Source: Lachnoclostridium sp. An118 (GTDB lineage: Bacteria > Bacillota > Clostridia > Lachnospirales > Lachnospiraceae). Taken from it: a DNA stretch of 64,000 nucleotides. Position 1 is the stretch's first letter. Every line of letters starts with the position of its first letter. Below, piece by piece: positions 10,884 to 28,291 of this stretch. The notes beneath the pieces were generated by a model. It searched no databases and was not told where the DNA came from. It saw nothing but the letters and a program-made list of their open reading frames with translations. The stretch lies in assembly GCF_002160985.1 (NCBI RefSeq), contig NZ_NFLQ01000014.1, forward strand, positions 1 through 64,000, read 5' to 3'. Made by a program: the position numbers and the translations under genes.

Positions 10884-12110
10884 AAAGGAGGTGACCGGCA
10901 AATAGAGAGAAAAGAACTGAATGATGTATTGCAGTACGCTCTTGAAAACGGTATGATTGATGTGAAATACGTTCAAGAGCAGATTGCTTTGAATAAACGA
11001 AAGGAATTGATAGAAAAACATCCATATAGTATATGGAAAGGCAAAGAGGGACTCTGGCATACCTATTTGCCGGATGCTGAGAAAAAACGGATACACAAGA
11101 GGAGCAGTACGCGTCAGGGAATAGAAGATATTGTTGCGGATTACTGGAAGGCACAGATGGAAAACCCGACGGTGAAGGATGTTTACGAACAGTGGATTAC
11201 AGGGAAACTTTCCAGAGAAGAAATATCTGTTGCCACCAAAAACAGATATGACAGAAAATTTTCAGAATGTATGGAAGTGTTCGGCAGGCGTAAAATAAAA
11301 TCCGTGTCAGAATATGAAATTGAAGATTTCATTCTGAACATTATCCATGAAAAGAATCTGACTGCAAAAGGGTACAGTAATCTCAGGACACTTATTTATG
11401 GGATCTTTAAGCTGGCAAAAAAGAAAAAGTACATTGATTTCAGTATCACAGAAGTGATCTCTGATATGGAAATCTCAAGAAAAGCATTCCGAAGAAATCA
11501 GCAGCCGGATGAGGCACTGGTGTTTTCCGAGGAAGAAACTGACCAGATCATTCAGTACATTATTTCTTCGCAGCTGGATCTTATTAATCTCGGACTCCTT
11601 CTGGCGTTTAAGACGGGTGTCAGACCTGGTGAGCTGGCCGCACTGAAGAAGGAAGATCTCTTGGATAGAAGTGTTGATGTACACAGAACAGAGATCCATT
11701 ATCAAAATGAGGATGGCGAAAATGTGTATGAGGTACGGGATTTTCCAAAGACAGAAGCCGGCATAAGAACCGTACTGATCCCGAAACAGGCGTTATGGAT
11801 TGTAAAAGAGATTAAGAGGCAAAATCCGTTTGGCGAATATGTGTTTATGAAGAACGGGAAGCGGATCCGGACTTACAGTTTTACGTGGCGGTTGAAGTCC
11901 ATCTGCCAGAAACTGGATATTCCGATCAGGTCGCTGAACAAAATCCGGAAAACATACGGGACGATCCTGCTGGACAGCGGTGCGGAAGAATCTTTTATTA
12001 TTTCTCAGATGGGGCATACGGATATTAAGACTACAAAGAATTATTACTACAAGGATCGGAAGAGCATGAGACAGAAGATCGAAGCGATCGATCAGGTGGC
12101 GGGTCTCTGA
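10830..12110 (+). CDS. Tyrosine recombinase (integrase)
   Basis: A phage-type integrase, up to 426 residues, for integrating and excising the element. It has an arm-binding N-terminus, a SAM-like core-binding domain (~105-200) and a catalytic domain with Arg in GVRPGEL (~265), Lys in PKTEAGIRT, the second Arg in NKIRKT, His in GHTDIKTT and Tyr in KNYYY. The position normally His in HxxR reads Asn. The start is doubtful: the frame opens at TTG 10830 with no ribosome site, while a perfect AAAGGAGGTG (10884-10893) points to an in-frame ATA at 10902. The attachment site lies ~100 bases past the stop. Confidence 0.92.
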   Translation: MKLPDSIQALSLFGGKLRKGGDRQIERKELNDVLQYALENGMIDVKYVQEQIALNKRKELIEKHPYSIWKGKEGLWHTYLPDAEKKRIHKRSSTRQGIEDIVADYWKAQMENPTVKDVYEQWITGKLSREEISVATKNRYDRKFSECMEVFGRRKIKSVSEYEIEDFILNIIHEKNLTAKGYSNLRTLIYGIFKLAKKKKYIDFSITEVISDMEISRKAFRRNQQPDEALVFSEEETDQIIQYIISSQLDLINLGLLLAFKTGVRPGELAALKKEDLLDRSVDVHRTEIHYQNEDGENVYEVRDFPKTEAGIRTVLIPKQALWIVKEIKRQNPFGEYVFMKNGKRIRTYSFTWRLKSICQKLDIPIRSLNKIRKTYGTILLDSGAEESFIISQMGHTDIKTTKNYYYKDRKSMRQKIEAIDQVAGL

Positions 12111-12827: not shown

Positions 12828-14111
12828 TTATACGGACTCGGCAATCTCCTTTGTGATCCTCAGGAATTTGTCGATGTCCTCTGTGCCGTGGCAGTGAAGC
12901 GGTGATACGCGGATCGCTCCGGGAATCCCCAGCGTATCCACGATCCTCTTGGAGTACATGCTGCTTCTCACGCGCTCAAATACGGTGACGCCGCGCTTCA
13001 TGTACTCGACCACGCAGTCGGGGTAGTCGATCCCCTTGATGCCCATGGCAACGATCAGGTCTTTGTATGTAAGGTCTTCCATGTCCACGTAAACCTCCAC
13101 GTTCGGGATGTGGCGAAGACCCGGGGTCCCCGGGGTTCCCTCCAGCATACGGTACAGAAGAGCACGCTCCTGCATATGGATGCGGGTCATGCCCTCCACA
13201 AAGAGCTCGCGCTTGTCCTGGCTGTGGATGAAATGCTCGCCGATGGAGCATACATAGTCGATGACAGCCATCATGGCGGCAAAGTTGCCGGGGGTAGGTG
13301 TTCCCAGCGCCCACACGTTGGCGTCCTTGAAGGTCAGCTTGTGGTGCATCATGGTAGCTACCCGGTCAGATACGTAGGCAAATCCGCAGCCTCTCACGCC
13401 GAAGAATTTATAGGGCGCGATGTTGGCGGCGTCCACGCCCCAGTCCTCCACGTCGATGACAGCGTGGGGCGCGTGCTGCACAGTATCCGTGATCACATAG
13501 CACTCCGGGTTGACTTCCTTTACCCTGCGAACGATCTCCTTGATGTCCATGATGTTTCCGGAAATATTGGAGGCGGCCATGATGCTGACAAGACAGGTGT
13601 CCTTGTCTACATATTTCATCACTTCGTCCGCGTCAATTCCGCCGGTGGTCCTGTTGGCCGGAACCTCCCGGAACTCTCTTCCTGTCTTTGTGCAGGCGTA
13701 CTCGACAGCATCGTGTGCTGACGGGTGCTCCAGGCAGGATGTAACAGCATTTGTTCCCCATTTTACATTGCTTAAGATGACATCCACGATCTGGAACATA
13801 GTCTGGGAAGCGGACAGCTCTGTCACGAGAGCGCCGCTCTTCGCGCCGAAGATAACCTCCAGTATTTCCTTTGTTCCCTCGGATACATAGTGAGCCAGCT
13901 TCAGCCCTCTGGCATAGTTCCTCTCCGGGCAGTCCGGAAACTGCTCTGCAGCCATCTTGGCCTCAACGGCTGCTTTCAGGCGAAGTGATCCGCCGGAGTT
14001 CTCAAAGAAAAGACGGGGTCCGTAGAGCGGATCCGCATCAGCGTAACAGAACTGAGCTTTCAGGTGTTTCTGATAGTCTTCCGGGAATAAAATTCCATGT
14101 TCTGCGTTCAT
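12828..14111 (-). CDS. Class V PLP-dependent aminotransferase (cysteine desulfurase-like fold)
   Basis: A 427-residue fold-type I enzyme. The PLP lysine is K235 in NIAPYKFFGVRG; the cofactor Asp and His are in TDTVQHAPH (~208-216). The SufS/NifS active-site cysteine loop is not evident, so an aminotransferase, lyase or epimerase activity is more likely than desulfuration. It is divergent from a LysR gene with overlapping promoters and faces the pxp/acc operon, so it probably acts in the same pathway, for example on the amino acid released by ring opening. The substrate is not known. Ribosome site AAAGGAGG is good. Confidence 0.85.
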   Translation of the reverse strand: MNAEHGILFPEDYQKHLKAQFCYADADPLYGPRLFFENSGGSLRLKAAVEAKMAAEQFPDCPERNYARGLKLAHYVSEGTKEILEVIFGAKSGALVTELSASQTMFQIVDVILSNVKWGTNAVTSCLEHPSAHDAVEYACTKTGREFREVPANRTTGGIDADEVMKYVDKDTCLVSIMAASNISGNIMDIKEIVRRVKEVNPECYVITDTVQHAPHAVIDVEDWGVDAANIAPYKFFGVRGCGFAYVSDRVATMMHHKLTFKDANVWALGTPTPGNFAAMMAVIDYVCSIGEHFIHSQDKRELFVEGMTRIHMQERALLYRMLEGTPGTPGLRHIPNVEVYVDMEDLTYKDLIVAMGIKGIDYPDCVVEYMKRGVTVFERVRSSMYSKRIVDTLGIPGAIRVSPLHCHGTEDIDKFLRITKEIAESV

Positions 14112-14256: not shown

Positions 14257-15168
14257 ATGAACTTGGCGGAGATTGAGACGTTCCTGATGATCGTAAAGAC
14301 AAAAAACATTACAAAGACAGCGGAAAATCTGTTCCTGTCCCAGCCCACCGTGAGCCACAGGCTGAAATCCCTGGAGGATGAGCTGGATGTAAAGCTCATC
14401 ACAAGAAAGAAGGGGTACAAGCAGATTGAGCTGACCACCCAGGGGGAGGAGTTTATCCCCATTGCGGAGCGGTGGGTCTCTATCTGGCAGGAGATGCAGC
14501 TTCTGAAGCATACCCAGGACAGGCTGTACCTGACAGTGGGGTGTACGGATACCATGAACAGCGCCATTTTCTTTGACCTGTACAGGCAGATCTTAAAAGA
14601 GAAGGACCATGTGATAAACCTTCATATTAAAACGCACTACTCCTATGAGCTCTATGGACTCCTGGAGAACCATGAGATCGACATCGGCTTTGTGTACCAC
14701 CATCTCCACTTTAAAAATATCGTGACAGAGCCCATCATGAGGGAGAAGATGTACATCCTGCAGTCCGCGCGGATGGCGTCCCAGCAAAACGCTATCCACA
14801 CGGATGACCTGGATCCCCAGAAAGAAATCTTCGTGAGCTGGGAGGCCAACTATCAGATCTGGCATGACCAGACCATCAGCAAGGGAGAGTGGCCCAGGAT
14901 CCAGGTGGACACCTTTGAACTCCTCTTCCACCTGCTGTCGGACGAGACACTGTGGGCCATCGTGCCCGTCTCCGTGGCGGAGCGGATCGCCAGCCTGCGG
15001 CCGGTTCATATCAGCGAGATTGCCAACAGCAGCCCGCCCCCGGAGAGGATCACCTACAAGATCAAGCACAAGTATCCGAACGAGGCCACTCTGAAGGCGG
15101 TGAACGCCTTTGAGAAGAAGATCAGCGCCTATCTGCGGACAAAGGACTGGGGCTTTGTGGGCAAATAG
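14257..15168 (+). CDS. LysR family transcriptional regulator
   Basis: A 303-residue LysR-type regulator. Residues 1-60 form the winged helix-turn-helix (ITKTAENLFLSQPTVSHRLK); the rest is the two-lobed effector-binding domain. The ATG at 14257 is preferred because AAAGGAGGGG lies just upstream; an earlier TTG at 14230 has no such site. It lies between the aminotransferase and the pxp/acc operon, and LysR proteins usually control the divergent gene and nearby operon. An AT-rich palindrome at 15204-15218 in front of pxpB is a candidate target. The effector is probably the operon substrate or its product. Confidence 0.92.
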   Translation: MNLAEIETFLMIVKTKNITKTAENLFLSQPTVSHRLKSLEDELDVKLITRKKGYKQIELTTQGEEFIPIAERWVSIWQEMQLLKHTQDRLYLTVGCTDTMNSAIFFDLYRQILKEKDHVINLHIKTHYSYELYGLLENHEIDIGFVYHHLHFKNIVTEPIMREKMYILQSARMASQQNAIHTDDLDPQKEIFVSWEANYQIWHDQTISKGEWPRIQVDTFELLFHLLSDETLWAIVPVSVAERIASLRPVHISEIANSSPPPERITYKIKHKYPNEATLKAVNAFEKKISAYLRTKDWGFVGK

Positions 15169-15203: not shown

Positions 15204-15244
15204 AAAATAATTTATTTTATGAAAGAAAACCCTTGTGCTATACT
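15204..15244 (+). promoter_or_regulatory. Candidate LysR-controlled promoter of the pxp/acc operon
   Basis: A perfect palindrome AAAATAA-T-TTATTTT (15204-15218) overlaps a poor -35 region (TTTATG, 15216-15221); TATACT (15239-15244) is the -10 box. A weak -35 covered by a palindrome fits activator-dependent control. Confidence 0.5.
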
Positions 15245-15340
15245 GTAAATAATTAATAAAGAAACGTGTAAATTGAACGAGAAATTGAGACAATTTACCG
15301 AAAGAAAGCAAAACGTAAACAAACGAAAGGAGCGGAGGAG

Positions 15341-16075
15341 ATGGAGGCTAAATTTCTGACAGGTGGCGATGAGTCGGTCTATGTACAGCTCGGCGATGAG
15401 ATCAGCCTGGAGGTCAACCAGAAGGTGAAGGATCTGATGCACAAGCTGGAGGCGGATCCGGTTGACGGAATTGCGGAGATGGTTCCTACATACGCTACAC
15501 TGATGATCCACTATAAGCCTGAGAAGATCTTGTATGCCCAGCTGGTGGGGGAAATCAAAAAACGCATGGTGGAGACAGGGGAAAAGAAGGAAGAGGTATC
15601 CCAGATTGTAAAGGTGCTCCCCATCTGTTATGACAGGGAGTTTGCCCTGGATCTGGACGAGTGTGCGGCCTTTGAGAAGGTTTCTGTGGAGGAGTTTATC
15701 CGCATGCATTCGGAACATGAATACTATGCGTATATGCTGGGTGTTGCTCCGGGACATGCCTATATGGCAAGGTTCGAGGAGCCCTTCCATTTTAAGAGGA
15801 GGACTGAACCGAGAGTGAGGATTAATGGCCGTTCTATCGTGGCAGCCGAGAACCAGTCCAACCTGATCCCCTTTGATCAGCCATGCGGATGGAACGTGGT
15901 GGCTGGCACCCCCTTAAATATTTGCGATTATTCCAAGAAGGAGCCTTTCCTGGTCAATGCGGGGGACTGGGTGAAATACCAGCCTGTCAGCAGGAAGGAG
16001 TATGATCAGATCCGTGCGGATGTGGAGAGAGGAACCTATAAGCTGGAAACATATGTAAAAAAGGCGGTGAAATAG
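15341..16075 (+). CDS. pxpB: 5-oxoprolinase subunit B / KipI-type carboxyltransferase subunit
   Basis: A 244-residue KipI/AHS1-family protein. The C-terminal half has the typical pattern GVAPGHAYMARFEE, PRVRINGRSIVAAENQSNL and GWNVVAGTP. PxpB and PxpC together form one catalytic unit; in urea carboxylase the same two domains are the carboxyltransferase that moves CO2 from biotin to urea. First gene of the operon, with a strong GGAGCGGAGGAG ribosome site, 3 bases from pxpC. With accB and accC present, a biotin-using carboxyltransferase role is as likely as the biotin-free 5-oxoprolinase. Confidence 0.9.
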   Translation: MEAKFLTGGDESVYVQLGDEISLEVNQKVKDLMHKLEADPVDGIAEMVPTYATLMIHYKPEKILYAQLVGEIKKRMVETGEKKEEVSQIVKVLPICYDREFALDLDECAAFEKVSVEEFIRMHSEHEYYAYMLGVAPGHAYMARFEEPFHFKRRTEPRVRINGRSIVAAENQSNLIPFDQPCGWNVVAGTPLNICDYSKKEPFLVNAGDWVKYQPVSRKEYDQIRADVERGTYKLETYVKKAVK

Positions 16076-16078
16076 AAG

Positions 16079-17032
16079 ATGGGAATCGTTGTTGAAAATC
16101 CAGGAATACAGACGACTGTACAGGACGAGGGGCGTTTCGGATATCAGCAGTACGGCGTGTCGCCGGCAGGGCCCATGGATACAAAGTCCTTTTTCCTTGC
16201 CAATATTCTGGCGGGAAATAAGAGAGGGGAGAGCGCCCTTGAGGTGACCTTTATGGGACCCACGCTGAAGTTTGAGAAAGACAATATCATTGCGGTGACA
16301 GGAGCAGACGTGTCCCCCACAGTGAACGGTGAGCCGATCCCCATGTACCAGGCAGTGCTTGTCCATGCGGGAGACACCCTTTCCTTTGGCGTGGCAAACG
16401 GCGGCAGCAGGGCTTATATAGCCTTTTGCGGAGGGCTGGATGTCCCGGCTGTTATGGGGAGCAAGTCTACGCTCATGAGGAACAAGCTGGGCGGAGTTGA
16501 AGGACGCAAGCTGGAGAAAGGCGATCATATCGGTTTTGTGAACCCGAAGACCAGTTTGCCGAAGATGGAGCTGCGGAAGCTGGAGCCGGAAAAGTTCCCC
16601 CAGAAGGATATTACGGTCAGGGTGGTGACTGGCCCCCAGGACACCGCCTTTACGGAAGAGGAAGTGAGGAAATTTTTCTGGTACAGCGCCACCATTACCA
16701 ATGAATCTGACAGAATGGGGATCCGTCTGGAGCGGGAGGAGCCCCTGCACCATATCAAGGACGGAAATATACTGACCGATGGCGTGGCATTCGGGTCTAT
16801 CCAGGTGCCTACCAACGGACAGGTCATCATCATGATGGCGGATCGGCAGACAACAGGAGGATACACGAAGATCGGAACCGTCATTTCCGTGGATCTGCCC
16901 AAGCTGGCTCAGGCCCAGCCCGGGTTTAGAGTGCACTTTGTGAGAGTGGGCATCCAGCTGGCACAGGAGCTGTACCTGCGCCAGTTAAAAGAGCTGAAGA
17001 ACCTGGAGAGATATCTGGGACAGAGAAGCTGA
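16079..17032 (+). CDS. pxpC: 5-oxoprolinase subunit C / KipA-type carboxyltransferase subunit
   Basis: A 317-residue KipA/AHS2-family protein, partner of the preceding KipI-type subunit. It opens with VENPGIQTTVQDEGR and GYQQYGVSPAGPMD, and has SDRMGIRLE (~205) and GQVIIMMADRQTTGGYTKIG (~245-265), all hallmarks of this family. It corresponds to the second half of the carboxyltransferase region of urea carboxylase. Length is normal for the family. Annotation as 'biotin-dependent carboxyltransferase' would be equally fitting. Confidence 0.92.
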   Translation: MGIVVENPGIQTTVQDEGRFGYQQYGVSPAGPMDTKSFFLANILAGNKRGESALEVTFMGPTLKFEKDNIIAVTGADVSPTVNGEPIPMYQAVLVHAGDTLSFGVANGGSRAYIAFCGGLDVPAVMGSKSTLMRNKLGGVEGRKLEKGDHIGFVNPKTSLPKMELRKLEPEKFPQKDITVRVVTGPQDTAFTEEEVRKFFWYSATITNESDRMGIRLEREEPLHHIKDGNILTDGVAFGSIQVPTNGQVIIMMADRQTTGGYTKIGTVISVDLPKLAQAQPGFRVHFVRVGIQLAQELYLRQLKELKNLERYLGQRS

Positions 17033-17081
17033 CGGACACTGCCGCCGCATAGCGGCAGACATAAAGAAGGGAAAGAAGAAA

Positions 17082-17522
17082 ATGAAGCTTGAGAAGATCA
17101 CGGCCCTGCTCCACGAGGTGGACAGGACAGGCGTGACAGAATTTGAGGTACAGGACGGGGACTTCCGCCTCTCCATCCGGAAGACGGCGGCGGCCGCGGA
17201 TGGGGAGAACACATGCCAGACGGCCTCCGGGGCTGTGAGCCCGCAGGAGGCGCCCCGGGAGCAGGAGGCGGTGTCCATCCAGGAAGGGACCATTATCCGC
17301 TCGCCTCTTGTAGGCATCTTCCACGCCTCCGACAGCCAGAGCACGGAGCCCCTTGTGACAGTGGGCAGCAGAGTCGAGCAGGGACAGGTAATGGGAGCGA
17401 TCGAGGCAATGAAGATGATGAACGACGTGGTGGCAGGATGCGACGGAACTGTGTCCGAGGTGCTTGTGAAGGACGGAGACCTGGTAGAGTACGCACAGCC
17501 TCTCTTCGTCATTGAAGGATAG
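17082..17522 (+). CDS. accB: Biotin carboxyl carrier protein
   Basis: A 146-residue BCCP. Residues ~1-35 match the AccB N-terminal region, an acidic linker follows (~40-68), and the biotinyl domain (~70-146) carries the attachment motif EAMKMMND with K111. It shuttles carboxybiotin between a biotin carboxylase and a carboxyltransferase. Its partners here are AccC directly downstream and PxpB/PxpC directly upstream; no acetyl-CoA carboxyltransferase subunits (AccA/AccD) are nearby. That points to a dedicated carboxylase rather than fatty-acid synthesis. Confidence 0.93.
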   Translation: MKLEKITALLHEVDRTGVTEFEVQDGDFRLSIRKTAAAADGENTCQTASGAVSPQEAPREQEAVSIQEGTIIRSPLVGIFHASDSQSTEPLVTVGSRVEQGQVMGAIEAMKMMNDVVAGCDGTVSEVLVKDGDLVEYAQPLFVIEG

Positions 17523-17536
17523 GGAGCAGGGAAAAG

Positions 17537-18880
17537 ATGTTTCGAAAAATACTGATTGCAAACAGGGGCGAGATCGCCGTGCGCGTCATCCGGGCCTGCC
17601 GGGAGATGGGCATCCGCACTGTGGCGGTGTACTCCGAGGCGGACGAGGACGCCATGCACGTGAGGCTGGCGGACGAGGCGGTCTGCATCGGGCCGGCGGC
17701 GCCCTCGGCCAGCTACCTGGATATGGACCGGCTTATCAGCACGGCCCTGGCCACAAAGGCGGAGGCCATCCATCCGGGATTTGGCTTTCTCTCGGAGAAC
17801 GCGGCTTTTGCGGACAAATGCGCCAAGTTTGGCATCGCGTTTATCGGACCCTCCGGTGAACTGATCGACAAGATGGGAAATAAATCCGAGGCCAAGCACA
17901 CCATGAAGGAGGCGGGTATCCCGGTGGTGCCGGGTACCGACAGCCCGGTGTACGAGGCGGGGGAGGCCCTGGAGGCTGCCGAGATCATCGGCTTTCCGGT
18001 CATGATCAAAGCCTCCGCGGGGGGCGGCGGCAAGGGTATGCGCCTTGCCTGGAACAGCCAGGAATTCCCGGCCCTCTTCCATGCGGCAAAGCAGGAGGCG
18101 GTGAACGCTTTCGGGGACGGCAGCATGTACCTGGAGCGGTACGTACAGTCTCCCCGCCACATTGAAGTCCAGATCATGGCCGACAAATTCGGCAATGTGG
18201 TCCACCTGGGCGAGAGGGACTGCTCGGTCCAGAGAAGGCACCAGAAGATGATAGAGGAGTCGCCCTGCGCCTTCATCTCCCCGGAGACGAGGGAGCGGAT
18301 ATGCGCCACAGCAGTGCAGGCGGCGAAGGCTGTGGGCTATGAGAACGCGGGGACCATCGAGTTCCTTCTGGATCAGTCCGGCGAGTTCTTCTTTATGGAG
18401 ATGAACACAAGGATCCAGGTGGAGCACCCGGTCAGCGAGCTGGTATCCGGCGTGGACCTGATAAGGGAGCAGATTCATGTGGCTGCAGGACTTCCGCTGA
18501 GCGTCAAGCAGGAGGATATCCTGTTCCGGGGACATGCCCTGGAGTGCAGGATCAACGCGGAGGATCCTATACATAATTTCATGCCCTGCCCGGGGACAGT
18601 GGAGAAGCTCTACCTGCCGGGAGGCAACGGGGTGCGGATGGACACGGCCATTTACCCCGGCTACACGATCCCGCCCTACTATGACTCCATGATCGTCAAG
18701 ATCATTGCCTACGACAGGGACAGGATGAGCGCCATCCGGAAGATGATCAGCGTTCTGGGAGAGTTCAGGATCAGGGGCGTGACCACCAACCTGGATTTCC
18801 TCTACGATGTGCTCAATCATCCGGATTTCCAGAGCGGTATGTTCAGTACAGACTTCATAGAGAGACACTATGAGCTGTAG
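17537..18880 (+). CDS. accC: Biotin carboxylase
   Basis: A 447-residue ATP-grasp enzyme that carboxylates biotin on the carrier protein using ATP and bicarbonate. It has the N-terminal pre-ATP-grasp domain (ILIANRGEIAVRVI), the glycine-rich ATP loop GGGGKGMR (~162-169), EMNTRIQVEHPV (metal and catalytic residues, ~288) and the C-terminal domain beginning GHALECRINAEDP. Full length for AccC. It is part of the pxp operon, 14 bases after accB. With AccB, PxpB and PxpC it reproduces, as separate chains, all the domains of urea carboxylase. Confidence 0.95.
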   Translation: MFRKILIANRGEIAVRVIRACREMGIRTVAVYSEADEDAMHVRLADEAVCIGPAAPSASYLDMDRLISTALATKAEAIHPGFGFLSENAAFADKCAKFGIAFIGPSGELIDKMGNKSEAKHTMKEAGIPVVPGTDSPVYEAGEALEAAEIIGFPVMIKASAGGGGKGMRLAWNSQEFPALFHAAKQEAVNAFGDGSMYLERYVQSPRHIEVQIMADKFGNVVHLGERDCSVQRRHQKMIEESPCAFISPETRERICATAVQAAKAVGYENAGTIEFLLDQSGEFFFMEMNTRIQVEHPVSELVSGVDLIREQIHVAAGLPLSVKQEDILFRGHALECRINAEDPIHNFMPCPGTVEKLYLPGGNGVRMDTAIYPGYTIPPYYDSMIVKIIAYDRDRMSAIRKMISVLGEFRIRGVTTNLDFLYDVLNHPDFQSGMFSTDFIERHYEL

Positions 18881-18949
18881 GATATAGAGTCACTATCAAC
18901 AAGAGGCCGGACATCGGGCCGGCAAAGTTTCAAGACAAGAAAGGAAGAA

Positions 18950-19915
18950 ATGAGTATGAAGATCGTAGTATTAGACGGCTACACATTAAATCCGGGAGAC
19001 ATCTCCTGGGAGGGGATGGAGGCATTTGGCGACCTGACAGTCTATGATAGGACAAAGGCCGAGGACGTGGCAGAGCGCATCGGCGACGCGGAGGTTGTCT
19101 ACACAAACAAGACTCCCATCACAAAAGAGACGCTGGACGCCTGCCCTAATGTGAAATTTATCGGCGTGCTGGCTACCGGCTACAACATCGTGGACACGGC
19201 GGCTGCAAAGGAAAAGGGTATTCCGGTATCCAATATCCCTACATACGGGACAGCGGCTGTATCCCAGTTCGCCATCGGACTTCTCCTGGAGCTGTGCCAC
19301 CACATCGGAGAGCACTCTGACGCGGTAAAGGCCGGCGAGTGGACAAGCAATCCGGACTGGTGCTTCTGGAAATATCCCCTTGTGGAGCTGGACGGCAAGA
19401 CAATGGGTATCATCGGATTTGGCCGCATCGGACAGGACACAGGAAAGATCGCCCAGGCTCTCGGCATGAAGGTGCTGGCATACGACTCCTTCCCGAAAAA
19501 AGAGCTGGAGAGCGAGACCTGCCACTACGCGGATCTGGACACAGTGCTTGGGGAGTCCGATGTGATCGCCCTTCACTGCCCGCTCTTCCCGGACACAGAG
19601 GGCATTATCAATAAAGACACTATCGCAAAGATGAAGGACGGCGTTATGATCATCAACAACTCCAGAGGGCCGCTCATTGTAGAGCAGGATCTGCGGGACG
19701 CCCTTGACAGCGGAAAGGTGGCAGGAGCTGCCGTGGACGTTGTATCCACAGAGCCCATCCAGATGGACAACCCGCTGATCGGAGCGAAGAACGTGATCAT
19801 CACCCCCCACATTTCCTGGGCTCCCAAGGAGTCAAGACAGAGGCTGATGGACATCGCGGTTGACAACCTGAAGTGCTACGTGGACGGCAAACCGCAGAAT
19901 GTCGTAAATGCATAA
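18950..19915 (+). CDS. D-2-hydroxyacid dehydrogenase
   Basis: A 321-residue NAD-dependent dehydrogenase of the D-isomer family, closest in look to glycerate dehydrogenases. The nucleotide site is GFGRIG (~157-162) and catalytic residues are Arg in NNSRGP (~239), Glu in STEP (~267) and His in TPHISW (~286). It would interconvert a 2-keto acid and a D-2-hydroxy acid. Sitting between accC and pxpA, it probably disposes of the keto acid made from the operon substrate, perhaps after the divergent aminotransferase acts. The substrate cannot be read from sequence. Confidence 0.9.
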   Translation: MSMKIVVLDGYTLNPGDISWEGMEAFGDLTVYDRTKAEDVAERIGDAEVVYTNKTPITKETLDACPNVKFIGVLATGYNIVDTAAAKEKGIPVSNIPTYGTAAVSQFAIGLLLELCHHIGEHSDAVKAGEWTSNPDWCFWKYPLVELDGKTMGIIGFGRIGQDTGKIAQALGMKVLAYDSFPKKELESETCHYADLDTVLGESDVIALHCPLFPDTEGIINKDTIAKMKDGVMIINNSRGPLIVEQDLRDALDSGKVAGAAVDVVSTEPIQMDNPLIGAKNVIITPHISWAPKESRQRLMDIAVDNLKCYVDGKPQNVVNA

Positions 19916-19972
19916 ATAATTTCAAGACGGATGCAAACACAGCAAAACAAAAAAGAAAGGATGGAAAAAACT

Positions 19973-20728
19973 ATGTATCAGGTGGATTTGAACAGCGACA
20001 TGGGTGAGAGCTTCGGCGCTTATAAGCTGGGCGGCGATGAGGAGATCATCAAGTACGTGACAACAGCAAACGTGGCCTGCGGATGGCATGCAGGAGATCC
20101 CATGGTAATGGACAAGACAGTCCGCATGGCAAAGGAGCAGGGCGTTATGGTAGGCGCTCATCCGGGCTATCCGGATCTGATGGGCTTTGGACGCCGGAAA
20201 ATGGTCCTGGCTCCCGCTGAGATCAAGAACTACGTGAAATATCAGATCGGAGCTCTCTCCGCCTTCACACGGAGCTACGGAATGAAGCTGCAGCATGTGG
20301 CTCCCCACGGCTCCATGGGAAATCAGTGCCAGTATGACGAGGAAGTATCCACAGCGATCGTGGACGCCATCTGCGAGGTGGACAAGGACCTTATCGTCTA
20401 CTACTGCGCAGGCGCTGTCTTAGGACAGATCGCTGAGAGCAGAGGACTTCGCACAGCCTCCGAGATCTTCGCTGACAGAGCCTATATGGACGATCTCTCC
20501 CTCGTCCCGAGAAAGATGGAGGGCTCCATGATCACAGACGAGAACATTGCCATTGACAGATGCGTGCGCATGATCAAGGAAGGAAAGGTTACATCGATCA
20601 ACGGAAAGGATCTGGACATCAAGGGCGACACGCTGTGCGTACACGGCGACGGGCCGAAGGCTCTGGCGTTCGTTCAGAAGATCCGTGAAAGATTTGCACA
20701 AGAGGGGATTGAGATCAAACATCTGTAA
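19973..20728 (+). CDS. pxpA: 5-oxoprolinase subunit A (LamB/YcsF family)
   Basis: A 251-residue LamB/YcsF protein with the family opening DLNSDMGESFG, the ACGWHAGDP motif (~36-44), GAHPGYPD (~60) and HVAPHGSMGN (~106). PxpA is the subunit that works with PxpBC to hydrolyse 5-oxoproline to glutamate with ATP. The ATG at 19973 gives the usual family N-terminus; frames opening at 19931 or 19961 would add unrelated residues. It lies after the dehydrogenase and before the transporter, completing a PxpABC set interrupted by biotin enzymes. Confidence 0.92.
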   Translation: MYQVDLNSDMGESFGAYKLGGDEEIIKYVTTANVACGWHAGDPMVMDKTVRMAKEQGVMVGAHPGYPDLMGFGRRKMVLAPAEIKNYVKYQIGALSAFTRSYGMKLQHVAPHGSMGNQCQYDEEVSTAIVDAICEVDKDLIVYYCAGAVLGQIAESRGLRTASEIFADRAYMDDLSLVPRKMEGSMITDENIAIDRCVRMIKEGKVTSINGKDLDIKGDTLCVHGDGPKALAFVQKIRERFAQEGIEIKHL

Positions 20729-20757
20729 AAGACGTATCGTAAAGGAGTGAAGAACAA

Positions 20758-22110
20758 ATGAGCAATACACAGAAAAAGGAAAAAATGTCCGTTGTCAAGA
20801 AGATGATCATCGCCCTGGTCGGCGGACTTGTAGTCGGACTGATCTTCATGTTTATCCGCAGCTCCCTGCTGGACTCCGGAAATGAAGGCACATGGGACAT
20901 TATCAACAAGATCCTGTTCCAGGATATCACAGCAGCTGACGGAACCGCGGCGCTTGGTCTTTTCTACATCATCGGACAGCTCTTTATGAGGGGTCTGCAG
21001 GCAGCCATCGTACCGCTGGTGCTCTGCTCCCTGAGCCTTGCCATGTGCAGTATCTCCAGCTCCTCCAAGCTGGGAAGGATCGCAGGGCGCACAGTCCTTG
21101 GCTTTGTCTGCTTCTACATCGTGGGCGCCTTCTTTGCAGGCCTTGTGGCTTACGCTATGAAGACAGCCGGACTTTTCAATGTAGACCTGCCTGCTGAGGC
21201 GGTCACAGACGCGGCCACCATCGACCAGTTCAACCCGCTGGCCACCATCGTGACAGCCGTACCGTCCAACATCATCGAGTCCATGAGCAGCAACAACAGC
21301 ATCCTGGCAGTTGTGGTAGTGTCCATCGTCATCGGCCTTTGCATGAACGTGCTGGGAGAGAAGACAGATCCCCTGAAGCATGTGCTGGAGGCGGGAAGCG
21401 AGGTCATCAACTTCTACCTGACCTTCCTCATCAACAAGGTGGGCCCTGTGGCTATCTTCTGTCTGGTATCCCGTACCTTCGCCATCTACGGCGCTGAGTA
21501 CCTGGCGCCGGCGGCGGCCTACATCGTGGGCGCTATGATCACCCTGTTCATTCTGGTTGTGACCATCTACCCCATCGGTATCTGGCTGACAACAAGGCTG
21601 AACCCCTTCAAGTTCTTAAAGAAGATCGCCAAGGTAGGTGTGTTCGGATTTTCCACAAACTCCTCCGCGGCGACTCTGCCTCTGAACACAAAGACAAACC
21701 TGGAGGAGCTGGGCTGCAGCAACGAGATCACAAGCTTTGTCCTGCCGACAGGTATGACCATCAACATGAACGGTACGACAGTCATGCACATGTTTGCCGT
21801 GACTTTCATCGCGACCAGCGCCGGCATCGACGTGACGCCTGCCAACCTGATCGTTGTGGCATTCCTCTCCATCTGCGCGGCTATGGGCTGCCCGGCTATC
21901 CCGATCGCAGGCACGACCCTGATCGTGACTATCCTCTCCGGTATGGGCTGGACATCCGATCTGTGCATGATCGCCTACGCGCTTGTCGTAGCTATCAACC
22001 GTCCTGTTGAGATGGCTCTCCTGCCTCTGAACGTTATCGGCGACGCGGCTACAAACGTCATCGTAAACGCCAAGGAAAAAGAGATCAACCTGGACGTATA
22101 TAACAGCTAA
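20758..22110 (+). CDS. Dicarboxylate/amino acid:cation symporter, atypical binding site
   Basis: A 450-residue DAACS (GltP-like) membrane transporter with about eight helices, the Ser-rich hairpin STNSSAATLP (~298-308) and the second hairpin PIAGTTLIVTILSGMG. Key residues differ from glutamate carriers: the NMDGT motif reads NMNGT (337-341), and TM8 reads NRPVEMALLPLNVIGD (414-429) where glutamate carriers have D..D..RT..N...D. The Arg that holds the side-chain carboxylate is Leu (L421), and the Asp that binds the amino group is Glu (E418). The cargo is therefore probably not glutamate or aspartate; a lactam or neutral amino acid fits the operon. Confidence 0.88.
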   Translation: MSNTQKKEKMSVVKKMIIALVGGLVVGLIFMFIRSSLLDSGNEGTWDIINKILFQDITAADGTAALGLFYIIGQLFMRGLQAAIVPLVLCSLSLAMCSISSSSKLGRIAGRTVLGFVCFYIVGAFFAGLVAYAMKTAGLFNVDLPAEAVTDAATIDQFNPLATIVTAVPSNIIESMSSNNSILAVVVVSIVIGLCMNVLGEKTDPLKHVLEAGSEVINFYLTFLINKVGPVAIFCLVSRTFAIYGAEYLAPAAAYIVGAMITLFILVVTIYPIGIWLTTRLNPFKFLKKIAKVGVFGFSTNSSAATLPLNTKTNLEELGCSNEITSFVLPTGMTINMNGTTVMHMFAVTFIATSAGIDVTPANLIVVAFLSICAAMGCPAIPIAGTTLIVTILSGMGWTSDLCMIAYALVVAINRPVEMALLPLNVIGDAATNVIVNAKEKEINLDVYNS

Positions 22111-22159
22111 AGCAACTGTATAAGTATAATCTTATTATGAGAATATAACAGGATTGCGG

Positions 22160-22206
22160 CAAGCTGGTTCTTTCCTATGGGTATAGGAAGGAACCAGCTT
22201 GTTTTT
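22160..22206 (+). terminator. Terminator of the pxp/acc operon
   Basis: CAAGCTGGTTC (22160-22170) pairs with GAACCAGCTTG (22191-22201), with further CTTCCTAT pairing inside, followed by TTTTT. Confidence 0.9.
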
Positions 22207-22270: not shown

Positions 22271-22768
22271 ATGATGGAAAATGGGAAACAATTATTTAAG
22301 AGGAATACAATTTTTTTCTTGAACGATAAAGAAGAGTATTCGTATGAAGAAATCCTGGAGTTTATAGGAGAGAGCCTGACTGCTCTGGGCTATGCAAAAG
22401 AAAGCTTTGCCAAGGCGCTGAAAGACAGAGAACGGGTATTTCCGACAGGCCTGCAGATGCAGCCTTATGGAATTGCTATTCCCCATGCGGATCAGGGGCA
22501 TGTGTATAAACCCTGTGTAGGGGTGGTGCGGCTGAAAGGGGGGGCCGTATTTAGGGATATGGTAGAGCCGGACAGAGAAGTGAGAGCAAAGATTATATTT
22601 TGCATTGCTATAGCAGGCGAGGAAAAGCAGACGGATGTATTGCAGGATATTATGAGGATAGCCAGTGATGAGTCCCTTATGAGCTGTATAGTGGATGCAG
22701 ACAGCGAAGAGGAAATCTATGAATTGCTTACTGAGGGAGGGAAAGGTACAAAAAGATCAGATACATAA
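22271..22768 (+). CDS. gatA: PTS EIIA component, fructose/galactitol type
   Basis: A 165-residue EIIA of the Fru/Mtl/Ntr superfamily. The phosphorylated histidine is H72 in GIAIPHADQ, preceded by FPTGLQ as in GatA. It takes phosphate from HPr and passes it to EIIB. It is the first gene of the operon and precedes the PRD regulator gene. The low-GC look of this region compared with the pxp operon suggests separate acquisition. Confidence 0.9.
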   Translation: MMENGKQLFKRNTIFFLNDKEEYSYEEILEFIGESLTALGYAKESFAKALKDRERVFPTGLQMQPYGIAIPHADQGHVYKPCVGVVRLKGGAVFRDMVEPDREVRAKIIFCIAIAGEEKQTDVLQDIMRIASDESLMSCIVDADSEEEIYELLTEGGKGTKRSDT

Positions 22769-22799
22769 TGCAGACATAAGGAAGGAGGACGAGAACGGG

Positions 22800-24767
22800 A
22801 TGTACCTGATTGAACGACAGAAAAAGATACTGACACTTCTCCTGACATCAAAGGAATGGATTACAGGAGCGGAAATTGCAAGAAGGCTTGGTATAACAGA
22901 CCGGACAGTGAGGAAGGACATAAGGGATATTAATGAAGAGTTAAAGAAATATCCCAATTGTTATATAGAGTCTATCAGAGGAACGGGGTATCTCCTGAGA
23001 ACGGCAGACAGGGATGAGCTTTTTAATCGTATGGAAGGGGGCAGTAGCAGCGAGACGCCCAGAGCAAGGATTGCACATCTTGCACTGGAAATCCTTGAAT
23101 CGGAAGATCCGATTTCACTGGAGGATTTGGAGGATGAATTTTTCATTAGCCGCACGACACTGGAGGCAGCTATCCGCCAGATTAATGATACATCCACGGC
23201 AAAAGGTGTGGGAGCAGTTATACGACATAGAAAAAATGCAGTTCAGGCTGAATGTACAGAGAGGGAAAAGCGGGAACTGATGCGCTCTTTTCTCTTTATT
23301 ACAAAAGAAGATATGGGCCGCAAAATGCAGGATGAATATGGATTTCTGAACGCAGGCGATATACGCAGGATCATGGGAAAGGTGAGAGGGGTGCTTGTGA
23401 AGCATAAACTGAAAGTCACGGACCGGGATATGACAGAGATTGTTTTGTGGCTTTATATACAGAAGCAGCGCCTTTTGTCCGGAGAAGTGCTGCGGGAACA
23501 AGAAGGAGCGGGAAGAGAAGAAAAGACTATTCCGGAGACCATACGCATTTTGTCTGAGGAAATGACAAAGAGTATGCAGGAGGGTACAGAACTTTTGTAT
23601 CCAAAAGAGGAGATTGTGGAATTTGCGGAGTATCTGGGGAATATCCGCCTGATGAAAGAGGAGCGCTTTACGAAGAAAGAGATTATGAACATGGTGGAAC
23701 CGTGTTATATCGTTATCGTGGAGGAGCTCCTTAATGATATCAAAAGTCGTTTTATGATCGATTTTACCCAGGACGAGGCCCTCTTTGCGGATCTTGTCAT
23801 GCATATTCGTTTTTCAATCAGAACCAGTGGCGGTACAGTTAGTCAGGAGGCCTCTCTTCTGGATACAATCAAGGACAGGTATCCATTTGTCTTTGAGCTG
23901 TCTACTTACATTTTCGGAAGGATATGGGACGTCCTGGGGATAGAGATGGATGAAGTGCAGCTCGGCTATGTGGCGGCACATTTGGGAGCTGCTTTAGAAC
24001 GGCTGGAGAATACAGATACGGGAAGCGATTTTAAGATTGCTGTATGCAGCAATATGAGTATGGGGATCGTGAGGCTTTTGATGGCAAAGCTACATTCGGT
24101 TTACAGGGGGCAGATCAGCATTGCAGGTCCCTATCCGCTTTATGAAATGGAAGATATGATGAAGGGGCAGCCGGGGCTGATCCTTACTACAAATTTATAC
24201 GGGGTGTTCGATGAGCTCCCCGTACCTGTCATTCCCATTTCTCCTATGCTGGAGTCGGCGGATATACAGGCCATTAATGAAAAGATAAAATCACTAAAAC
24301 AAAAGACAGTTGTGCTGAGTCTGGAACAGGGGATCGAACAGTATTTTGAGAGAGAACTGTTTTTTCCAGGGATGGAGATGGAGTCTCGGGAGGAAGTGCT
24401 GGAGTTTTTATCGTCAAAGATTGTTGAGAAAGGGTATGCTCCTACAAATCTGCTGGAAGATATTATGGAGAGGGAGCGAATCGCTCCCACCACATTTTCA
24501 AATTATATGGCTATGCCCCATCCGATCCATATGTGTGCATACAAGACGGTGATTGCTGTGGCTACTCTGAAAAAAGGAGTAGTATGGGGGAAGCAGAAGC
24601 AGGTCGTAAGACTGGTCTTTCTTCTTATCGTGCGCAGCAAAGATATGAAATATATCAGTGGTTTTTTTGACATTACAGCAAAGCTTGTGACGCGGAAAAA
24701 GAAGGTGCAGACGCTTCTGGAGACGGAAGATTTTGAAAAATTTATAGGTGAGCTTGTTCCTATGTGA
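22800..24767 (+). CDS. PRD-containing transcription regulator (BglG/MtlR type)
   Basis: A 655-residue PTS-controlled regulator. An N-terminal HTH_11 (AEIARRLGITDRTVRKDI, ~22-40) is followed by a second helical (Mga-like) domain and two PTS regulation domains (~190-410). Then come a GatB-like EIIB domain (~415-500) and a C-terminal EIIA domain (~510-650) with PHPIH as a probable phosphohistidine site. DNA-binding activator rather than RNA antiterminator, because of the HTH start. Start at 22800 is chosen for its AAGGAGG site. Phosphorylation by the local EIIA/EIIB and HPr would set its activity. Confidence 0.92.
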   Translation: MYLIERQKKILTLLLTSKEWITGAEIARRLGITDRTVRKDIRDINEELKKYPNCYIESIRGTGYLLRTADRDELFNRMEGGSSSETPRARIAHLALEILESEDPISLEDLEDEFFISRTTLEAAIRQINDTSTAKGVGAVIRHRKNAVQAECTEREKRELMRSFLFITKEDMGRKMQDEYGFLNAGDIRRIMGKVRGVLVKHKLKVTDRDMTEIVLWLYIQKQRLLSGEVLREQEGAGREEKTIPETIRILSEEMTKSMQEGTELLYPKEEIVEFAEYLGNIRLMKEERFTKKEIMNMVEPCYIVIVEELLNDIKSRFMIDFTQDEALFADLVMHIRFSIRTSGGTVSQEASLLDTIKDRYPFVFELSTYIFGRIWDVLGIEMDEVQLGYVAAHLGAALERLENTDTGSDFKIAVCSNMSMGIVRLLMAKLHSVYRGQISIAGPYPLYEMEDMMKGQPGLILTTNLYGVFDELPVPVIPISPMLESADIQAINEKIKSLKQKTVVLSLEQGIEQYFERELFFPGMEMESREEVLEFLSSKIVEKGYAPTNLLEDIMERERIAPTTFSNYMAMPHPIHMCAYKTVIAVATLKKGVVWGKQKQVVRLVFLLIVRSKDMKYISGFFDITAKLVTRKKKVQTLLETEDFEKFIGELVPM

Positions 24768-24775
24768 TGCGGAAG

Positions 24776-24812
24776 TTGACAGTTTTTAATCTGAAAATAT
24801 AGCGTGTATAAT
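24776..24812 (+). promoter_or_regulatory. Possible internal promoter of the PTS genes
   Basis: TTGACA (24776-24781) and TATAAT (24807-24812) occur between the regulator gene and the aldolase gene but are 25 bases apart, too far for one promoter. TTGACA with TATAGC 16 bases downstream is an alternative. This may be the regulator-activated promoter. Confidence 0.4.
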
Positions 24813-24859
24813 CGAATTATAGAAAAACAAGAACAAAAAAACGATAGGAGGAAACAACA

Positions 24860-25501
24860 ATGAAGTATCAGGAGACAAGAGAAAAAGTTTTAGAAATTGC
24901 GGTAAAATGTCTGGAAAAAGGATTGATTCATGGAACGGCAGGGAATGTGTCCATGAGAGTACCGGGCGAGGATGTGGCGATCATTACACCGACAAGAATA
25001 CCATACGATCAGTTGAAGCCAGAGCAACTTCCGGCGGTAAGCTTGACAGGTGAGCTGCTGGATGGAGAGTTTAAGCCCTCCTCAGAAACTCCGATGCATA
25101 CAGCTGTGTACAGAGCCAGGAAAAATCTGAATGGCATTGTCCATACACACTCTATGTATGCAACTGTATTTTCTATCCTGGAACAGGAGATTCCGCCGAT
25201 GATGCCGCCGTCAACTCCTTACGCTCCAGTGCCTGTAGCACCCTTTCATCTTCCGGGGTCCGAAGAGCTGGCGCAGGCTGCAGTAGAGGCTCTGGGAGAG
25301 GAAAAGATGGTATGTACTCTGCAGAACCATGGACTACTGGCTGCCTGCCCAACGCTGGACAGAGCTTTCTCGGCTGCGGAATACATAGAGGAGTGCGCAC
25401 AGCTTGCTTACCTTACACTGATGGCAGGTAAGATGACGCCGATTCCGGCCAAGGATGTTGAGACACTGAAAGACAGAATGCTTAAGGGCATTGCAGTATA
25501 A
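24860..25501 (+). CDS. Class II aldolase, L-fuculose-phosphate aldolase type
   Basis: A 213-residue zinc aldolase/epimerase-family protein. E76 (SSETPMH) and the zinc histidines H95, H97 (VHTHSMY) and H157 (LQNHGLL) are in the positions found in FucA. It would split a ketose-1-phosphate into dihydroxyacetone phosphate and an aldehyde. It precedes the EIIB and EIIC genes with AGGAGG at the right distance. Ribulose-phosphate epimerase-type members share the fold but carry different residues near the C-terminus; aldolase is preferred because a second aldolase and an aldehyde-type reductase share the operon. Confidence 0.87.
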   Translation: MKYQETREKVLEIAVKCLEKGLIHGTAGNVSMRVPGEDVAIITPTRIPYDQLKPEQLPAVSLTGELLDGEFKPSSETPMHTAVYRARKNLNGIVHTHSMYATVFSILEQEIPPMMPPSTPYAPVPVAPFHLPGSEELAQAAVEALGEEKMVCTLQNHGLLAACPTLDRAFSAAEYIEECAQLAYLTLMAGKMTPIPAKDVETLKDRMLKGIAV

Positions 25502-25519
25502 GGAAAGGGGGAGAAGAAT

Positions 25520-25834
25520 ATGGCAGAAATGTATCGTGTGTTGGCAGTCTGTGGAGCGGGACTGGCTACTTCTACCCATGTTGCAAAGACCCTACAGAAC
25601 GGACTGGAGCAAAGAGGAATTGAGACGCAGATACGCACCTGCAGCGTTGCAGAGTCAAATGGTGTTATGTTTCAGTATAAACCTCACGTGATTCTAGCTA
25701 CTGTGTCTGTAAATTCTATACAGCCTCCGGAAGGGACACCTGTTTATTCTGGAGTACCACTGCTGACAGGTGTCGGTTCGGCCAAGGTGCTGGATGAAAT
25801 AGCAGCCTATCTGACCGAACTGGATAAGAAGTAG
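25520..25834 (+). CDS. gatB: PTS EIIB component, galactitol type
   Basis: A 104-residue EIIB with the phosphocysteine C11 in VCGAGLATST at the end of the first strand, as in GatB/SgcB proteins. It receives phosphate from EIIA and gives it to the sugar entering through EIIC. Encoded 14 bases before gatC. Confidence 0.92.
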   Translation: MAEMYRVLAVCGAGLATSTHVAKTLQNGLEQRGIETQIRTCSVAESNGVMFQYKPHVILATVSVNSIQPPEGTPVYSGVPLLTGVGSAKVLDEIAAYLTELDKK

Positions 25835-25848
25835 AGGAGGACAAAGAT

Positions 25849-27117
25849 ATGACGATTGTATTGGATGTCCTTAACAAGGTAGTGGATCTTGGAGCTTTTG
25901 TAATGATGCCGGTCATTCTCTTTGTCATGGGAATGATATTCCGGATGAAACCGAGCGATGCACTGAGAGCAGGTATCACCGTAGGAATTGGATTTAAAGG
26001 TATATCCCTTGCCGCCGGGCTGATTACTGAAACGATGACGCCTCTGATTACCCAACTTCAGGAGCAGTGGGGACTTTCGTTAGACGCTGTGGATCTTGGT
26101 GTGCCTGTCGTATCTACGATGTCGTTTAGCGATGGCAGGTTCGTTCTTATGATGTTTGGAGGCGTGCTTTTAGTTAATGCAGTGATGCTTCTTTTGAATT
26201 TGACGAAGACGCTTAATGTAGATATATGGAACTTCTGGCATTATCTTTTCATAGGGAGTCTGGCGACGATCATATCAGGAAATATCCTGATTGGACTGTT
26301 GGTTGGTGTTGTGTATTCAGCTATCAACCTTTTGCTCGCAGACCGTAATCAGGAGCTGATCTGTGAGGTGTGCGGGGAGCAGTACAGAGGTCTTTCCTTC
26401 TGTACTATGGCTTTCCCGGTTCTGCTCCCAATCGGCAGGGCAATAGACTGGGTTATTGACAAGATACCGGGTGTGAGGAAGATAGATTTCAATTTAAAGA
26501 AAGTTCCCAAGAAAGCGGCATTTTTTACAGAGCCGATCATGATAGGCTTTATAATCGGAGCAATCCTGGCGCTTCTTGCAAGCTATAGCTGGGACCAGTG
26601 CCTGAATGTAGGAATGACGATGGCAGCGGCCATGTTCCTTCTTCCAAGGATGATTTCTATCCTGATGGAGGGGCTGTCTCCTATCGCAACTGCTACAAGA
26701 GAATTTATGGCTACCCGCTTCCCCAACAGGGAGTTCCGCATTGGCATGGATTTTGCCCTGCTTGTAGGTGATACAGATATGATTACACTGGGAATGATAT
26801 TTGTGCCTATTTCGCTGCTGCTTGCAGTAATACTGCCGGGAAACAGGGTCCTTCCTCTGGTGGGACTGACCAACTTGTCCTATATGATGATGGCTCCGGT
26901 TATTGCATCTAAAAGAAATATGTTCCGGGGACTGCTCATAGGCATTGTGATGGTCGTACTTGTGTTCTACATGGCATCCGCCATGTGTCCGCTCATTACA
27001 GAACTCGGAATACAGACAGGACTGGTGGAAGCGGGAGGCAACTATACGTTGTTTAATACAGGTGAGCATGTAGGATTTGTGCTGCTTCAGATACTGAAAA
27101 TCTTCTTCCCGTCTTAA
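25849..27117 (+). CDS. gatC: PTS EIIC component, galactitol type
   Basis: A 422-residue integral membrane permease of the GatC family with about ten or more hydrophobic segments and the early motif IGFKGISLAAGLI. It binds and moves the sugar or polyol while EIIB phosphorylates it. GatC homologues are known for galactitol, arabitol and other pentitols or ketoses, so the family alone does not fix the substrate. No polyol-phosphate dehydrogenase (GatD) is in this operon, which argues against plain galactitol use. Confidence 0.92.
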   Translation: MTIVLDVLNKVVDLGAFVMMPVILFVMGMIFRMKPSDALRAGITVGIGFKGISLAAGLITETMTPLITQLQEQWGLSLDAVDLGVPVVSTMSFSDGRFVLMMFGGVLLVNAVMLLLNLTKTLNVDIWNFWHYLFIGSLATIISGNILIGLLVGVVYSAINLLLADRNQELICEVCGEQYRGLSFCTMAFPVLLPIGRAIDWVIDKIPGVRKIDFNLKKVPKKAAFFTEPIMIGFIIGAILALLASYSWDQCLNVGMTMAAAMFLLPRMISILMEGLSPIATATREFMATRFPNREFRIGMDFALLVGDTDMITLGMIFVPISLLLAVILPGNRVLPLVGLTNLSYMMMAPVIASKRNMFRGLLIGIVMVVLVFYMASAMCPLITELGIQTGLVEAGGNYTLFNTGEHVGFVLLQILKIFFPS

Positions 27118-27144
27118 AAAGACGAGGGTAGTAGGAGGAAAAAC

Positions 27145-28008: not shown

Positions 28009-28025
28009 AATAAGGAGAGATGAGG

Positions 28026-28286: not shown

Positions 28287-28291
28287 GGCGT

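Follow-up and report, generated by a model that had tools for sequence, protein, structure and literature searches.

A divergent PxpABC operon of gut Lachnospiraceae with its own biotin carboxylase genes: a possible biotin-dependent lactam hydrolase

Why should an operon for a 5-oxoprolinase-like enzyme contain its own biotin carboxylase? PxpABC, the prokaryotic 5-oxoprolinase, was reportedly described by Niehaus et al. in 2017. In the window analysed here (the whole stretch of 64,000 nucleotides, positions 1 to 64,000 of contig NZ_NFLQ01000014.1 of Lachnoclostridium sp. An118), homologues of all three subunits, PxpA, PxpB and PxpC, are encoded in one operon together with a biotin carboxyl carrier protein (BCCP), AccB, a biotin carboxylase (BC), AccC, a D-2-hydroxyacid dehydrogenase and a DAACS-family symporter. 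The genes follow each other as pxpB, pxpC, accB, accC, dehydrogenase, pxpA and symporter, all on the + strand at positions 15341-22110 with gaps of 3-69 bases, which confirms the collinearity claimed in an earlier note on this DNA. The operon lies on contig C6 (our numbering) of a genome of 3.47 Mb in 57 contigs. We tentatively propose that it may encode a biotin-dependent lactam hydrolase, in which AccBC and PxpBC would carboxylate, at N or O, a lactam other than 5-oxoproline and PxpA would open its ring; conceivable substrates are a branched or 4-hydroxylated 5-oxoproline and a cyclic amide of serine type.

AccB (17082..17522, +) reaches 119.8 bits with the BCCP model TIGR00531, whose cut-off is 115.2, and the biotin site EAMKMMN is present. 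AccC (17537..18880, +) scores 672.8 bits with TIGR00514 (cut-off 626.5) and agrees with E. coli AccC in the alignment at 14 of 14 residues checked. Two biotin carboxylases were found in the genome. The second one, 60.9% identical to the AccC of the operon, is part of an accB-fabZ-accC-accDA cluster on contig C23, an acetyl-CoA carboxylase (ACC) set, and AccBC of the operon therefore looks dedicated. The earlier note had considered that AccB and AccC might serve only ACC as the sole copies in the genome; the C23 cluster provides other copies. A carboxyltransferase on contig C1 was also considered as partner of the operon AccBC and was rejected, as it has a carrier of its own alongside, together with an OAD_beta protein and a PYC_OADA protein.

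The pairing of AccBC with PxpBC is not confined to this genus. When 398 genomes were sampled evenly across the phylum, 124 of them had PxpC. From their matches 120 loci were fetched (fragments and at least three apparently intact matches, in G055, G393 and G310, were omitted), among them three with AccB-AccC beside separate pxpBC genes, two urea carboxylases and one locus with a carrier only (L133). Biotin carboxylase genes stand beside pxpBC in 9 of 20 plasmid loci, namely those of three haloarchaea, two Rhizobium, Shinella, Bradyrhizobium, Pseudomonas and Lactiplantibacillus; the remaining ones comprise one urea carboxylase, one locus with carriers only, one cut copy and eight unlinked loci. 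The plasmid loci were selected by hand, with variety in mind, from 743 and 498 matching records, and their counts are not rates. The pairing is more frequent in Lachnospiraceae, though the counts there are not rates either: among genomes whose only PxpB differ from the type found in the window, at least 13 of 39 have it, their canonical loci (L193, L194, L199-L202, L206-L212) being chosen partly for a nearby AccC. Altogether, the pairing spans haloarchaea, Rhizobiaceae, Bradyrhizobium, Pseudomonas, Photorhabdus, Lactiplantibacillus, two families that we number f39 and f69, and Lachnospiraceae.

Phylogeny suggests that AccC was recruited to pxp loci more than once. In the AccC tree, the AccC of window-type loci form one clade and those of canonical Lachnospiraceae loci form a separate one, while three proteobacterial pxp-linked AccC join E. 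coli AccC (100/99 and starred in each case). Deep branches of this tree are not all starred and ACC is represented by two rows only; the AccC of L018 and L197 are identical, probably from one species, and L017 was omitted from the trees. On the tree of PxpB and PxpC, the label for acc linkage changes 9 times over 71 rows, with a shuffled mean of 23, and 3 times inside the window-type clade. Rows scored there as having no acc genes include L179, a 3-kb contig unassessable in this respect, and L190 with its canonical copy, the AccC of which (G592:C59:40899) is situated a little beyond the fetched end.

Two genomes, G521 (98% complete) and G582 (93%), yielded no biotin carboxylase other than the pxp-linked AccC. 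Their single carboxyltransferase gene is decarboxylase-like and in G521 has a carrier gene and an OAD_beta-like gene as neighbours. Weak matches to PF03255 (AccA), 1.7e-10 in G521 and 9.6e-7 in G582, are to the product of this carboxyltransferase gene. A window-type operon occurs in G636 (82% complete), where the pattern is the same, with a match of 1.0e-9 to the AccA model. All three matches are formally above the Pfam cut-off and the genomes are in 60-90 contigs; we assign them to the decarboxylase-like protein, since their positions agree with it and since the equivalent C1 protein of the window genome gives the same weak match. Genomes G174, G248 and G380 of families f39 and f69 also yield only weak AccA-model matches, and each has a second biotin carboxylase. 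From sequences, residues and linkage we consider it likely that AccBC is functionally coupled to PxpBC, because the genome has a separate ACC on C23, the pairing occurs in multiple lineages, and there are genomes in which the sole biotin carboxylase found is pxp-linked and no ACC-type transferase was found.

The substrate of such an enzyme can be approached from the PxpABC proteins themselves. The pxpB-like gene (15341..16075, +; carboxyltransferase subdomains C/D, CT_C_D, E 4e-52) and the pxpC-like gene (16079..17032, +; subdomains A/B, CT_A_B, 6e-96) code for proteins that miss the 5-oxoprolinase equivalog cut-offs of NCBIfam, PxpB with 124.0 bits (cut-off 145.55) and PxpC with 236.9 (cut-off 500). 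In PxpB, the motif GFxPGFxYLGG is changed to GVAPGHAYMAR and QTGxYPxxSPGGW to QSNLIPFDQPCGW; QTGxY is kept in 105 of 121 PxpB not linked to acc genes, and the window protein has QSNLI there. The pxpA-like hydrolase (19973..20728, +; LamB_YcsF 8e-98; the open frame begins at 19931, start 19973 being likelier) has VAPHGSMGN where the canonical sequence is VKPHGALYN, whose lysine is kept in 101 of 103 acc-unlinked PxpA. PxpC is near-canonical and differs at 3 of 65 conserved columns.

PxpB proteins 49-91% identical to that of the window are present in 13 further genomes among the 299 of the family that were sampled, with one of the 13 belonging to the same genus, and one more relative has 41% identity; a close PxpC is present in 6 of 11 genomes of the genus. 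On the tree of PxpB and PxpC these window-type PxpB make up one clade (starred, 100, SH-aLRT only; the tree has long-branch warnings), and most of their loci share the gene set LysR-PxpB-PxpC-dehydrogenase-PxpA-DAACS. Judged from sequence, window-type PxpB and PxpA constitute a Lachnospiraceae clade with rewritten motifs that are near-invariant elsewhere, and this clade is new here. The window genome has in addition a PxpB with canonical motifs on contig C2 (L003:6249-10482), where canonical pxpB-pxpC are accompanied by a class-IV aminotransferase and two proteins of the D-glutamate cyclase family (PF07286, PF14336). This locus lacks pxpA, which in the genus relatives L146 and L147 follows the PF07286-type gene; the window genome yielded no PxpA besides the divergent one on C6.

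Genes within 8.5 kb of PxpB were compared at 18 window-type, 20 other-motif and 126 canonical loci (12 of the canonical ones are shorter than 10 kb). Glycerate kinase is found near 6 window-type PxpB and near no PxpB of the other two groups, RraA-family aldolase near 4 window-type, 4 other-motif and no canonical ones, and class-I aminotransferase near 4, 5 and 1, respectively. With only queries from other loci counted, RraA and aminotransferase are unchanged and glycerate kinase is found at 4 loci. With the query loci removed, glycerate kinase is retained at 4/16 window-type loci (p=1e-4), and class-I aminotransferase at 1/15 window-type (p=0.20) and 5/20 other-motif loci (p=2e-4). Among window-type loci, RraA and class-I aminotransferase occur at the basal ones, L189-L192; at most core loci, including the window, a class-V pyridoxal phosphate (PLP) enzyme is found instead. 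Neighbours and dehydrogenase together suggest that the product is an amino acid, different from the glutamate that 5-oxoproline gives, which undergoes transamination and subsequently cleavage or reduction in the direction of pyruvate, glyoxylate or glycerate.

Because of the changed PxpA and PxpB motifs and the glycerate kinase and RraA neighbours, we lean toward a substrate other than 5-oxoproline. The re-test of neighbours without self-matches and query loci has lowered our estimate of this slightly, and that of the biotin-dependent lactam hydrolase by a trace. The earlier note had left the choice between 5-oxoproline and another lactam, amide or cyclic urea; motifs and neighbours make the former unlikely and favour another lactam, probably a hydroxylated or branched relative of 5-oxoproline or some other lactam feeding the glyoxylate/glycerate pool. 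Four proteobacterial acc- or carrier-linked pxp loci outside this clade (L155, L163, L164, L167) contain a PLP aminotransferase, three of them also RraA-type aldolases, and L163, L164 and L167 have a NAC-type regulator and an amino-acid ABC transporter; these loci are likely to form a second class with a substrate other than 5-oxoproline.

Several observations weigh against a biotin-dependent lactam hydrolase. The accBC genes are absent at 9 of the 17 assessable window-type loci (L183-L185 and L187-L192; L179 is excluded), so they are not indispensable in cis and must be called facultative; the loci that have them, those of the window genus group and of G442, G636 and G552, place them after PxpC and before the dehydrogenase. 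The earlier note had suggested looking for tight conservation of the gene set. The gene order of the window is shared by Claveliimonas, Mordavella and Eubacterium sp. ER2, and accBC is not always kept; the note's joining of AccBC to PxpBC is strengthened by recurrence across phyla and weakened by the facultative presence of accBC in this operon family. No biotin carboxylase was found in 57 of the 124 PxpC-bearing genomes (28 of 83 at completeness of at least 97%). The PxpBC fold therefore works without biotin elsewhere, and the idea that all PxpABC secretly depend on biotin carboxylase was rejected on the same count. In G585 (99% complete; locus L202), the sole AccC is pxp-linked and a true AccA is present (1.5e-118). 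Many acc-linked PxpB retain the canonical motif, and linkage alone therefore forces no visible active-site change. In a first set the motif was changed in 14 of 18 acc-linked and 16 of 121 unlinked PxpB (L150, a cut copy of L158, was dropped, the ambiguous L164 set aside, and L133 counted as unlinked though a carrier gene is present), which suggested a tie between linkage and loss of QTGxY; this was rejected after 13 more acc-linked Lachnospiraceae loci proved to keep the motif. The neighbour comparison was framed after some loci had been inspected, with queries drawn from those loci. With the query loci removed, RraA remains at 1/15 window-type (p=0.11) and 3/19 other-motif loci (p=0.002), and in the window itself no gene for RraA or glycerate kinase turned up in the range of 8.5 kb from PxpB. 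Finally, the lysine which acts as general base in urea carboxylase is replaced by arginine in the window PxpB, as discussed below.

Two rival explanations appear unlikely to about the same degree. According to the first, AccB and AccC are a second, inducible supply of ACC subunits, and a biotin-independent PxpABC opens the lactam by direct phosphorylation, the activation that is assumed for 5-oxoproline in ordinary PxpABC (PMC13274462). The identity between the two AccC of the genome and the BCCP-like character of the operon AccB fit this explanation. So does G585, where one AccC probably serves both carboxyltransferases; pxp-linked AccC can therefore also serve ACC. A six-gene operon of S. 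aureus, likened here to the window by its description only, likewise unites pxpA, pxpB, pxpC, accB and accC, is bound by CcpE at sites that fit a LysR-type motif, and its accB/accC were taken for fatty-acid genes by its authors (PMC11315280). On the other side stand the ACC cluster elsewhere in the window genome, the genomes G521 and G582, in which accBC is pxp-linked and only a decarboxylase-like transferase was found, and the lack of an AccDA-like gene at the 17 pxp loci scanned.

The second rival retains the substrate of ordinary PxpABC, 5-oxoproline, and lets ATP be spent on biotin carboxylation rather than on direct phosphorylation. It agrees with the acc-linked canonical PxpABC, which keep the 5-oxoprolinase motifs, and with the window genome, where the canonical PxpBC on C2 has no PxpA and the only PxpA found is that of C6. 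It also agrees with Photorhabdus, whose acc-linked set adjoins pyroglutamyl peptidase, DUF969 and DUF979. The gene order of that locus (L019:4969-11678) is DUF969, DUF979, pyroglutamyl peptidase, PxpA, a PxpB-PxpC fusion and a BC-BCCP fusion, and we regard it as a putative two-piece biotin-type PxpABC beside an enzyme releasing 5-oxoproline. Against a biotin-assisted 5-oxoprolinase in the window speak the PxpB without QTGxYP and GFxPGFxYLGG, the PxpA without the near-invariant K and Y of VKPHGALYN, and the glycerate kinase and RraA neighbours in the clade.

The earlier note had read the operon as a split urea carboxylase. This holds at the level of domains: AccC, AccB, PxpB and PxpC each match their own part of the urea carboxylase model TIGR02712, with 34-524 bits, all missing the single-chain cut-off of 1303.85. 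It fails at the general base, Lys1605 of the urea amidolyase KlUA (PMC5770610). At this column, placed by counting residues along the alignment, the window PxpB has arginine, as canonical PxpB do; arginine is found in 133 of 143 rows, and lysine is present in three urea carboxylases and seven PxpB (haloarchaeal, rhizobial, L133 and L139). Window-type PxpB read KRR here, with a lysine before the arginine in the position where canonical PxpB mostly have proline (103/107). A plain split urea carboxylase was rejected on account of this arginine; if the window enzyme carboxylates, its base differs. A split carboxylase of urea or guanidine type, with an N-carboxylated urea or amidine as product and PxpA in place of allophanate hydrolase, is thus very improbable, the four TIGR02712 matches and the lysine of haloarchaeal and rhizobial acc-linked PxpB being outweighed by the arginine, by the absence of any allophanate-hydrolase-like match among the nine window proteins scanned, and by a context of dehydrogenase, DAACS and PLP enzyme that suits an amino-acid product. 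Lysine-bearing PxpB are those of L151, L152, L153, L161, L162, L133 and L139, and 6 of these 7 adjoin a biotin carboxylase or carrier gene; with the lysine kept and a biotin gene next door, these loci appear to be better candidates for split urea carboxylases than the window.

Returning to the biotin-dependent lactam hydrolase, we combine the observed gene content, residues, phylogeny and neighbour counts into a scheme in which the coupling, the carboxylation at N, the class of substrate and the sequence of the steps are our reconstruction. A small cyclic amide would be imported and degraded by the divergent PxpABC with its own AccBC, for which we see an even chance. The DAACS protein would import the substrate under the regulation of LysR. 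AccC would charge the biotin of AccB using ATP and bicarbonate, and the PxpB/PxpC carboxyltransferase would move the carboxyl group onto the lactam. PxpA would hydrolyse the activated ring, the resulting carbamate losing CO2 to give a free amino acid; the PLP enzyme would convert the latter and the D-2-hydroxyacid dehydrogenase reduce the 2-oxo acid formed. AccBC would be an add-on to an older PxpABC unit, and sister operons without acc genes would either borrow ACC subunits or follow the biotin-free route that has been proposed for ordinary PxpABC. A biotin carboxylase is present in 15 of 15 genomes with window-type PxpB (G698 with weak matches) and in 29 of the 39 genomes of the family whose PxpB are all of other types (p=0.046, by a Fisher test, which like the others ignores phylogeny), which fits a supply of AccBC in trans and is no proof of it.

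Compared with known systems, the operon occupies an intermediate position. It shares three collinear subunits and a near-canonical PxpC with the PxpABC 5-oxoprolinase, and departs from it in the sub-cut-off scores of PxpB and PxpC, in the PxpA and PxpB motifs, and in its own AccB/AccC, dehydrogenase and DAACS partners. With urea carboxylase/urea amidolyase (KlUA, PDB 3va7 and 5i8i; PMC5770610) it has four functional domains in common, here as separate proteins in the order pxpB-pxpC-accB-accC, with arginine for Lys1605 and a LamB_YcsF hydrolase, no allophanate hydrolase being seen in the operon. A plasmid cluster of Lactiplantibacillus (L158) likewise has pxpBC with adjoining BCCP, BC and pxpA genes, but with the canonical QTGIYP motif, an NRAMP transporter and a hydro-lyase. 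In L. pentosus, an extra BCCP/BC pair is described as an ACC copy, with pxpB and pxpC listed separately (PMC12427679). The caprolactamase CapAB resembles the proposed scheme in opening a lactam with ATP and bicarbonate; bicarbonate is needed and carboxyphosphate routes are among the proposals. It is stated to be dissimilar to PxpABC, belongs to another protein family and has no biotin subunits (PMC8453981). Stand-alone urea-carboxyltransferase halves of no known function were noted in work on biotin carboxylase evolution (PMC3199775). No proposal of a biotin-dependent PxpABC was found among the literature matches listed, and a remark in the 2017 PxpABC paper cannot be excluded.

The remaining genes of the region complete this picture. 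The D-2-hydroxyacid dehydrogenase (18950..19915, +) has 2-Hacid_dh domains, with 5tx7 as closest solved structure, and the symporter (20758..22110, +; SDF, PF00375) is present in most loci of the window-type clade. The class-V PLP enzyme (12828..14111, -) is remotely cysteine-desulfurase-like, with an Aminotran_5 match of 1e-28, and its position is kept in most core relatives; no substrate for it or the dehydrogenase is named by the closest solved structures. It is divergent, as the earlier note had it, but the label aminotransferase is unsupported, its scores lying under all NCBIfam cut-offs, and the LysR-type regulator (14257..15168, +; HTH_1, LysR_substrate; present at most sister loci), also called divergent there, is collinear with the operon. 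The gap of 172 bases between LysR and pxpB may hold a promoter, although no sigma-70-like match was found in it. The operon is closed by an intrinsic-terminator-like hairpin (22158..22203, +) with a 20-pair stem followed by a T-run; such sites in the region number 8 against 6.9 expected, near chance, and this stem is by far the longest. For all seven operon genes dN/dS against relatives is 0.03-0.15 where computable, many dS values being saturated (near or above 1), and the genes are therefore maintained. Past the terminator, genes for PTS EIIA, a PRD regulator, EIIB, EIIC-GAT, an aldolase-type and an enzyme-I-like protein (22271-30019) probably represent a separate sugar system. A phage-type integrase gene lies upstream at 10830-12107 and a DDE transposase gene downstream at 35396-37168.

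PxpB and PxpC are proteins of carboxyltransferase fold, and operons with their own biotin carboxylase allow a direct test of CO2 transfer to a lactam, made cleaner by genomes whose sole biotin carboxylase lies in a pxp operon. The reading of S. aureus accB/accC as fatty-acid genes (PMC11315280) may be a mis-annotation. The clade of PxpABC with altered motifs in gut Lachnospiraceae suggests an uncharted dietary or host lactam. If the proposal is true, a biotin carboxylase class would act as an activating hydrolase, repeatedly recruited onto an older, biotin-free enzyme.

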